Assembly (NCBI RefSeq): GCF_000337595.1
Contig: NZ_AOIL01000067.1
Coordinates: forward strand, 127,203-191,202
Length of the DNA stretch: 64,000 nt
Direction: 5' to 3'
From: Natrialba taiwanensis DSM 12281
GTDB taxonomy: Archaea > Halobacteriota > Halobacteria > Halobacteriales > Natrialbaceae
The notes under the pieces are model-generated. The model ran no database searches. It was given only the letters and a program-made list of their open reading frames with translations, and was not told the DNA's origin. The position numbers and the translations under genes are program-made. Shown here one piece after another: positions 13,424 through 15,844 of the stretch (position 1 is the first letter of the stretch; the number at the start of each line of letters is the position of its first letter).

Positions 13424-15844
13424 ATGGACTACGGTCTCGATATCGGTGCGGACGCGATCCGGCTGGCGAGCGGCCAGCCTGCCTCACCGTCCGTCGCGTC
13501 GACACCCGCGCTCGTGCTCGCGACCTCGACGCTCGAAGCGACGCCGCCAGCGAGCAATGCTGAACTCGTCGAAACCGCTGACGCGGCGTATCACGTCGGT
13601 TCGGACGCCCTCGCAGCGGCGGAGACGGAAGACGACGAACCCGGGTCGCTGTTCCGGAACGGCGTGCTCCCGCCCGACCCTCACGGCGACGCGGCGTTTG
13701 CCGCACTCGTTGAGAGCGTCTTCGCCGAGCAGGAGACCCAGGGGCAGGCACAGGCACAGTCGGCCGAAACCGGCGGTCGGCTCTGTTACACGACGCCGGG
13801 CACGCTCGTCGACGCCGACGCACCGACCGACGCCCACCGAGAGACCGTCGCCTCGACGCTCGAAACTGCCGTGAATCGTCACGGGAACGGAAACGGAAAC
13901 GAGAACGGGGACGGAGACGGGAACGAGTTCAGTGTCAGTGTGACGCCGATCAGCCGGGGCTTTGCGGTCATCTACGACCAGTTCGCTGCGGACAACTACA
14001 CCGGACTTGGAATCTGTTTGGGACCGCAGACGACGAGCGTCGCGCTGGCGTACTACGGCGTCCCGGTCCTCGCGTTCGCCGTTCCGCGGGGCACCGACTG
14101 GATCGTCGACCGGGCGACCGATGAAACCGGTCACGCACCCGAACGGGTCCGCAGCGTGCTCGAAACGTTCGAACTCGACCCCGACGCGGACCCCGGCCCG
14201 GTCGAGCGCGCACTCGCCACGGCGTTCGACGACCTCGTCGGTGAACTCGGCGACGCGCTCGGTGTGCAGGCGACCGAGGCCGACCTTCAGCGGGGCGTCG
14301 CTGTGCCGATCGCAGTCGCAGGCTCGGGTGCCGTCGAGGGACTCGAGTTCCTGCTAGGCGGTCGATTCGATGCGGCAGGGCTGTCGCTCTCGATCCGCGG
14401 CGTGCGACTCGCCGACGATCCCAAGGCGAGTCCGGCGCGAGGCGCACTCGCAGCCGCTGCGGACGAGGTCGAGCCCTACGAGGACGTGACGTGGGGCGAT
14501 GCGCCGAAGGACGGACCATCGGGCGAGACGTCGGAAAGCGAGCACGCAGCGCCGACGGCACAGGCCGATGACGCGACGCTGTCGTTCGACGACACGGCTC
14601 CCGATAGCGACGCCGTCGGAGATGCCGCGGATGACGCTATCGACACCCTGTTCGACCGACTCGCGAACCGGGACGACGAGATTCAGGGCCTCACGGCCGA
14701 CCTCGATCGGCTCGAAGCCACCGTCGAAACCGTCGGCGATCGAACGGCCGACGCTACCGACCTCGATGCCGTCGAAACCGAACTTGAGCGCGTCCGGGAG
14801 CGCATCGACGACCTCGAAGCCCGCGTCGACGAGTGCAGAACCGACCTCGACGACAATCGGGAGCGAGCCGACGACCTGGAGGAGACTCTCGAAACAACGA
14901 CGACCCTCGACGCAGTCGAGACCAGGACCGATGACATCGCGGCCGATACCGACCGCCTCGCCGACGAGTTCACCGCACTTGCCGATCGCTGTCCGGAGGG
15001 TGACCTCGCAACCCGAAGCGCGGTTACGGCGCTCGAAGACGAACTCGAATCCGTTCGGACGACCCTCGAAGAACTCGAGGAACTCGAGGATCGCGTCGAC
15101 ACGGCCGAAGCGGACAGCGAAACCGCGGACGCGGCATTCGAGGACCGATTCGCGGCCCTGACCGATCGACTCGACGCGATCGACGAGCGAGTGATCGACT
15201 CCAGTGACCGCCTCGAATCCGTCGCCGCTGACGCGGATTCCGTCGAAGCGGCCGTGACGGGCGTTGCCGATGACGTAGACGACATTGAGAGTGAACTCGC
15301 CACCGTTGTGGCCGACGTTGCCTCTCTCGATGATGACGTAACGACGCTCGACGAGCGGATAACCGCTCTCGAGGACTCCGAAACGGCGCTTGACGACTCC
15401 GAAACCGCACTCGACGAGTTCAATCGTGAACTCGAGACGCTCTCGGCTGCCGTCGAGTCCACCCCCGACGCCGCAACGGTCGACGACCTCGCTGCTGAGA
15501 CGGACCGGGTAGCCGCCGATATCGACTCGGTCCGCGAAACTGTCTCGGCCGTCGACTCCGAGCAGACCGCAGTCGAGGAGCGACTCGACGACCTGGACGA
15601 GACCCTCGCGGATACCGTGAGCCAAGACGAGTTCGCCGCGCTTCGTTCGGAACTCGAAGACCGCGAGGAACAGGCGTCGTCGCCGAGTTCACTCGGCGGC
15701 CCGCTGCTCGCCGGTGGCGGTGGCGCTGGTGTCGTCGCTGGCGCGCTCATCGCACTCGCAGTACCCGGAACAGGCGGGGTCGGTGTCGCCGCAGCCGCGG
15801 TCGGTGCCGCGTTGCTCGCGGCTGCCGTCGCGGTGACTCGGTAG
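13424..15844 (+). CDS. Actin-fold/coiled-coil/membrane-anchored protein
   Basis: The 806-residue protein has three parts. Residues 1-350 look like an actin/Hsp70-type ATPase: MDYGLDIGADAIRLA at the N-terminus, GLGICLGPQTTSVALAYYGVPVLAFAVPRG as a second phosphate-loop-like strand pair (given in parts: GLGICLGPQTTSVALAY, GVPVLAFAVPRG), and VPIAVAGSGAVEGLEFLLGG as the adenosine-region motif. Residues about 400-750 are an Asp/Glu/Arg heptad-rich coiled coil with repeated DDLE/DALD units. Residues 751-806 form a Gly/Ala hydrophobic hairpin ending VTR, a likely membrane anchor. A 9-10 residue GNGN-type linker interrupts the first domain near residue 155. Function is unknown; a scaffold or polarity protein is plausible. 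Confidence 0.8.
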   Translation: MDYGLDIGADAIRLASGQPASPSVASTPALVLATSTLEATPPASNAELVETADAAYHVGSDALAAAETEDDEPGSLFRNGVLPPDPHGDAAFAALVESVFAEQETQGQAQAQSAETGGRLCYTTPGTLVDADAPTDAHRETVASTLETAVNRHGNGNGNENGDGDGNEFSVSVTPISRGFAVIYDQFAADNYTGLGICLGPQTTSVALAYYGVPVLAFAVPRGTDWIVDRATDETGHAPERVRSVLETFELDPDADPGPVERALATAFDDLVGELGDALGVQATEADLQRGVAVPIAVAGSGAVEGLEFLLGGRFDAAGLSLSIRGVRLADDPKASPARGALAAAADEVEPYEDVTWGDAPKDGPSGETSESEHAAPTAQADDATLSFDDTAPDSDAVGDAADDAIDTLFDRLANRDDEIQGLTADLDRLEATVETVGDRTADATDLDAVETELERVRERIDDLEARVDECRTDLDDNRERADDLEETLETTTTLDAVETRTDDIAADTDRLADEFTALADRCPEGDLATRSAVTALEDELESVRTTLEELEELEDRVDTAEADSETADAAFEDRFAALTDRLDAIDERVIDSSDRLESVAADADSVEAAVTGVADDVDDIESELATVVADVASLDDDVTTLDERITALEDSETALDDSETALDEFNRELETLSAAVESTPDAATVDDLAAETDRVAADIDSVRETVSAVDSEQTAVEERLDDLDETLADTVSQDEFAALRSELEDREEQASSPSSLGGPLLAGGGGAGVVAGALIALAVPGTGGVGVAAAAVGAALLAAAVAVTR

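Follow-up and report, generated by a model that had tools for sequence, protein, structure and literature searches.

In haloarchaea, the actin relative volactin controls both cell shape and tissue-like development. In Haloferax cells, it forms dynamic filaments whose tips bind the membrane and which bridge the cytoplasm, and binding factors have been proposed (PMC10869688); the literature describes one known actin homolog in Haloferax volcanii (PMC7617734). Here, we analyzed a 64,000-nucleotide stretch of DNA from Natrialba taiwanensis DSM 12281 (the window), which encodes a longer relative of this protein, called long volactin below. The open reading frame picked out by an earlier model-made note on these letters (the sequence-only reading) was confirmed at 806 aa on the forward strand, with an ATG start. 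The protein has four parts: an actin-fold head (residues 1 to 350), a linker, an acidic coiled coil of ∼350 residues, and a C-terminal hairpin of two hydrophobic segments (Table 1). The closest named relatives are those of Natrialba asiatica (head 93% identical) and N. aegyptia (head 90% identical). This architecture is established computationally, and from it we infer a function.

Table 1. Features of the long volactin gene and protein, in positions of the window
Feature	Residues	Position	Strand	Basis
Long volactin gene	806 aa + stop codon	13424..15844	+	Stop-free open frame, ATG start; long open frames in 75/101 family genomes
Actin-fold head	1-350	13424..14473	+	PF25216, 329 bits; AlphaFold pLDDT 86; Z 27 to MamK, 25 to MreB
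Phosphate-1 motif YGLDIGADAIR	3-13	13430..13462	+	Aligned to GLDVGTMNIL of ordinary volactin; D6 in 31/32 long forms, G8 in 28/32
Degenerate phosphate-2 motif GLGICLGPQTTSVALA	194-209	14003..14050	+	Ordinary volactin GLGISFGAGMTNVCLS nearly invariant (12 sequences); long forms G/E, S/A/P, Q/E
Connect-2 motif AVPRGTDWIVD	219-229	14078..14110	+	Ordinary volactin RGGDW[VI]DE; Asp to Val in 27/32 long forms
Adenosine motif AVPIAVAGSGAVEGLEFLL	293-311	14300..14356	+	Long clade [AG]GxxAxEGxE versus TGGTS in ordinary volactin
Disordered acidic linker	351-397	14474..14614	+	pLDDT <50; variable in alignment
Acidic coiled coil	398-750	14615..15673	+	Helical in model; heptad periodicity z 17; length highly variable, total protein 575-1313 aa
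Conserved coil start (around DAIDTLFDRLANRDDE)	403-420	14630..14683	+	A405, L413, R416, D417 invariant; L409, F410, R412 nearly so (29 full-length relatives)
C-terminal membrane hairpin	758-806	15695..15841	+	Hydropathy; layout same in 33/33 complete relatives tested
Glycine zipper GxxxGxxxG	765-773	15716..15742	+	G769, G773 invariant, G764 nearly so (29 full-length relatives); pattern in 28/31 tails

Neither the head by itself nor a profile of its family had a significant match among the sequences of solved structures, and the fold assignment therefore had to come from a model. AlphaFold was run on residues 1 to 352 with 32 relatives aligned (mean pLDDT 86.1; pTM 0.87). Foldseek matched this model to BeeR, MreB, and MamK (E values of 10−11 to 10−13), and VIA-align gave Z scores of 27.0 for MamK (294 residues, 3.5 Å), ∼25 for MreB, and 24 for both crenactin and eukaryotic actin. 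Over the fold matches as a whole (MamK, MreB, BeeR, crenactin, and actin), 276 to 314 residues were aligned at Z 23 to 27. The two related domains of the Actin superfamily are thus present, and the actin fold that had been called from motif pattern for residues 1 to 350 is right. The sequence-only reading had also implied an isolated new actin. Instead, the head matches the Pfam family PF25216 (“Volactin”) at 329 bits against a cutoff of 35 (4 × 10−98) in two stretches, the better of which spans profile positions 143 to 321 of 321. The protein thus belongs to the volactin family as a divergent member, and its genome encodes an ordinary volactin as well.

The nucleotide site of this head is degenerate. 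GLDVGT, GISFGAGMTN, and RGGDW[VI]D were invariant in the 12 ordinary volactins compared, whereas the consensus of the second phosphate loop in Natrialbaceae long forms is GICLGxQTTS: its first loop Gly is replaced by Glu or Asp in 13 of 32 sequences and the next Gly by Gln or Glu in 26 of 32. The connect-2 Asp is gone in most, and the phosphate-1 motif is loose too, although its first Asp is kept. An adenosine-region motif expected near residue 290 was found slightly downstream (Table 1). Membership in the Actin superfamily is therefore carried by the fold rather than by intact motifs, and nucleotide hydrolysis, implied when the protein was first called an ATPase, is doubtful because the phosphate-2 glycines and the connect-2 Asp are lost and the first motif is loose. 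Among the divergent long volactins of two other haloarchaeal families (L131 to L135), the phosphate-2 loops look intact (LGAGTTD and LGTGTSE) or are different (VDGTRT), and those of one family retain the connect-2 Asp together with the better loop (LGAGTTD, LGTGTSE). Since some of these proteins keep intact-looking loops, the fusion did not necessarily bring about decay of the nucleotide site; judging from the motifs, hydrolysis was likely lost within the Natrialbaceae clade, after the fusion took place.

The acidic coiled coil of ∼350 residues seen in the sequence-only reading was borne out. The full-length model builds residues 398 to 750 almost entirely as helix, and their net charge is −91, with 2 Pro and 5 Gly. 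Hydrophobic residues recur every 3.5 positions in this region (z = 17 versus composition-preserving shuffles; z = 0.4 in the control region, residues 60 to 350), and the same periodicity was seen across 33 complete relatives (z of 8 to 33). Between species, coil length changes severalfold (L083 to L115; whole protein of 575 to 1,313 aa) with head and hairpin of constant size, as expected for a spacer. A coil of this kind could alternatively serve as an SMC-like tether joining the chromosome or other cargo to the membrane. In line with such a tether, archaeal SMC-related and Rad50 models give scores in the coil, and DNA partitioning is affected by salactin, a further actin of haloarchaea (PMC10746226). 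However, the NCBIfam matches lie in the coil only, as for any acidic coil, and fall far under their cutoffs (best, 67 versus 300 bits), and the protein has no SMC head domain. An identity of the SMC or Rad50 type was accordingly rejected, and we consider a DNA or cargo tether improbable.

Beyond the coil, residues 758 to 806 are hydrophobic (Kyte-Doolittle peak of 2.41). The uncharged C-terminal stretch ends within 4 residues of the C terminus in all 33 complete relatives; their tails consist either of two stretches of ∼20 to 30 residues separated by a polar or charged residue or of one stretch of 42 to 55 residues, and they are usually split once. The pattern GxxxGxxxG occurs in 28 of 31 tails, compared to 29% of shuffled tails. 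Searches of Pfam and of the genome returned no family for the hairpin and no second significant copy. The C-terminal hairpin of the sequence-only reading thus held up in its hydropathy and conserved layout but only partly in structure: in the AlphaFold full-length model, the second segment is helical (residues 789 to 805) and the first (approximately residues 758 to 780) is unstructured, with pLDDT <50. The case for a hairpin therefore rests on hydropathy and conservation.

The genes next to long volactin include pckA and those for a MOSC protein, a cupin, an MFS transporter, and the ribosomal stalk (some names were read from sequence), a gene content that suggests no common pathway. An operon or functional link with the upstream MOSC gene was considered and rejected because only roughly half of the loci have MOSC nearby and pckA directly adjoins the gene elsewhere. 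We also rejected contamination or an assembly artifact, since a comparable locus with similar flanks occurs in Natrialba, Natronorubrum, Natrinema, Halobiforma, and other genera. No secretion, pilus, or division genes were found among the neighbors in the loci compared. This absence bears on the idea that long volactin is a nonpolymerizing actin-fold scaffold at the membrane, like the actin-like domains of PilM or GspL in principle, around which an envelope or division machine is assembled. The degenerate nucleotide site would suit such a scaffold, as would the structural match of the head to 3jc8_Ma (E = 2.4 × 10−10), one chain, probably the actin-like component, in a model of the type IVa pilus machine. 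Nevertheless, the locus lacks the gene context of PilM and GspL, and the head sequence is clearly that of a volactin and not of PilM, leaving a scaffold rather unlikely.

To define the distribution of the long form, a profile of its head was searched against 391 haloarchaeal genomes. The first 75 matches all lay in frames of 649 to 1,564 residues and all came from Natrialbaceae; the remaining matches listed were short volactins. Within Natrialbaceae, 75 of the 101 sampled genomes carry the long form and 26 do not. It was also found in at least 5 of 290 haloarchaeal genomes outside the family, a lower bound because few candidates were scored per genome; these proteins (775 to 878 aa) come from two families and are more divergent, with the same architecture. 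Head, coil, and hairpin were all present in every complete member examined, and genomes in which the long form was found had, in addition, a second match of the ordinary volactin type. Volactin-domain proteins from other classes of the phylum are short (∼326 to 371 residues). In a tree rooted on these proteins, the Natrialbaceae and divergent long forms fell together on one side of a branch that separates them from all short volactins (support of 98/97), and the long forms other than the divergent ones made up a clade of their own (100/100). The tree fits a single origin of the fused form, with the caveat that fast-evolving sequences may attract each other.

Gain and loss at the locus were examined in nine Natrialbaceae genomes without the long form. 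At the syntenic site, most of these genomes still had pckA adjacent to some of the genes for MOSC, cupin, MFS, and p155, and no volactin head was detected between them; the gene was therefore either lost from this fixed position or moved into and out of it. Where long volactin is absent (L137 to L145), the neighbors are eroded in several genomes to short fragments of the MFS or cupin gene, suggesting repeated deletions at the site. The head also evolves fast: tip branches are mostly 0.2 to 0.8 in the long clade versus 0.00 to 0.16 in ordinary volactin, which is ∼93 to 97% identical across Natrialbaceae. Repeated absence and fast evolution are what a functionless, decaying volactin duplicate might display; however, long frames without internal stops are kept in 75 of 75 carriers, and residues of the head, the coil start, and the hairpin are invariant across 29 to 32 relatives, making decay very improbable.

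The evolutionary rate also bears on whether long volactin polymerizes on its own account, an idea of the sequence-only reading, to form filaments tethered to the membrane or a lattice at the cell cortex; in this scheme, the coil would be a spacer and the hairpin an anchor, and nucleotide would either merely stabilize the fold or not be needed. The head has a full actin fold nearest to those of the filament formers MamK, MreB, and BeeR, and coil and hairpin together would concentrate heads at the membrane. A precedent among actin relatives is FtsA, which is attached to the membrane and assembles into short filaments. However, the phosphate-2 and connect-2 motifs are degraded, unlike those of dynamic actins, and the head has diverged quickly while ordinary volactin has stayed nearly constant. 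We regard self-made filaments as unlikely, albeit with a chance that deserves attention.

Ordinary volactin (340 residues) is encoded ∼70 kb from the long form in the same genome. It lies directly downstream of the gene for a DUF7139 membrane protein (PF23600; L002:290-2367, contig C67 near 69 kb). DUF7139 was adjacent to ordinary volactin in 45 of 48 loci checked, and because of this adjacency the protein may be a candidate, perhaps general, membrane partner of volactin; a literature search for DUF7139 found nothing. In one Natrialbaceae genome without the long form (G373), the ordinary volactin gene is split by an insertion of ∼8.9 kb (L136:3990-12900) flanked by a 13-base direct repeat, GATGAAACTCATC. 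In contrast to this interrupted gene, Haloferax volactin is reported to be probably essential.

Our preferred reading, which we put forward tentatively and at somewhat less than even confidence, is that long volactin is a pseudo-actin anchored in the membrane, where it would tether the filaments of ordinary volactin by binding or capping them. The glycine-zipper hairpin would be inserted in the cytoplasmic membrane so that both ends face the cytoplasm, because the protein lacks a hydrophobic segment at its N terminus and the chain stops at or just past the second segment. The coil would form dimers or small bundles, holding the head tens of nanometers off the membrane, and the volactin-derived head, poor at or incapable of ATP hydrolysis, would dock on ordinary volactin filaments or cap them. 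The filaments would thereby be fastened to the membrane, probably by their ends, and the protein might act in cell-shape control or filament positioning, a role that would be dispensable in some species. This tethering role is favored by a head that is a volactin paralog with an actin fold and degenerate nucleotide motifs, by the ordinary volactin in the same genomes, and by a head-coil-hairpin layout common to two branches, the Natrialbaceae and the two other families. Counting against it are another likely membrane partner of volactin (DUF7139), the absence of the gene from 26 of 101 genomes, and a first hairpin segment that was not modeled as a helix. Long volactin cannot be a universal anchor, because Haloferax volcanii, in which tip anchoring is seen, is described as having one known actin homolog (PMC7617734); it would be an extra, lineage-specific linker, with DUF7139 as a possible general partner. 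A more specific version, a nucleotide-dead pseudo-actin dedicated to linking that caps or seeds volactin filaments from a coiled-coil stalk of evolving length on a glycine-zipper anchor, is conceivable, and we hold it more loosely.

As a widespread paralog with its own membrane anchor, long volactin is a concrete candidate for what anchors the tips of volactin filaments in Natrialbaceae. If the tethering role is true, an actin relative has been turned into a cytoskeletal linker in archaea. The protein merits interest for its wide occurrence, its conserved build, and its amenability to direct tests.

Other systems also have actin folds that function at a membrane, including FtsA, which attaches by a C-terminal amphipathic helix, and the actin-like domains of PilM and GspL, which attach by membrane partners or one transmembrane helix; unlike long volactin, these are not known to have a long coiled coil. 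MreB attaches to the membrane via a loop or an amphipathic helix. MamK and MreB are the closest solved folds (over ∼290 residues at ∼17% identity), and neither is known to have a long coiled coil with a C-terminal hairpin like that of long volactin. Crenactin, an archaeal actin of the same fold, is a larger single-domain actin without a membrane tail and is 14% identical in the structural alignment. Salactin of Halobacterium salinarum has a haloarchaeal actin fold published as closest to MamK and MreB (PMC10746226), which are also the best fold matches of long volactin; it is set apart by its description, which gives a charged disordered N-terminal tail and pole-grown filaments and mentions no coiled-coil or hairpin extension. 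Our literature searches retrieved work on ordinary volactin and on salactin, but none describing a coiled-coil, membrane-anchored, or long volactin, and they yielded no system that combines an actin head, a long coil, and a two-pass membrane anchor in a single chain; the new arrangement proposed from the sequence thus has no published counterpart in those searches. The nearest relative remains volactin itself (VolA, HVO_2015), to whose family the head belongs by profile score, aligned along its length. Ordinary volactin is a single domain of ∼340 to 360 aa with intact GLDVGT, ISFGAGMTN, and GGDWVD, whereas the long form adds a coil and a hairpin, loses motif residues, and falls outside the ordinary clade, so that it is not an ortholog of ordinary volactin. 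Long volactin is an unreported, fast-evolving branch of the volactin family.
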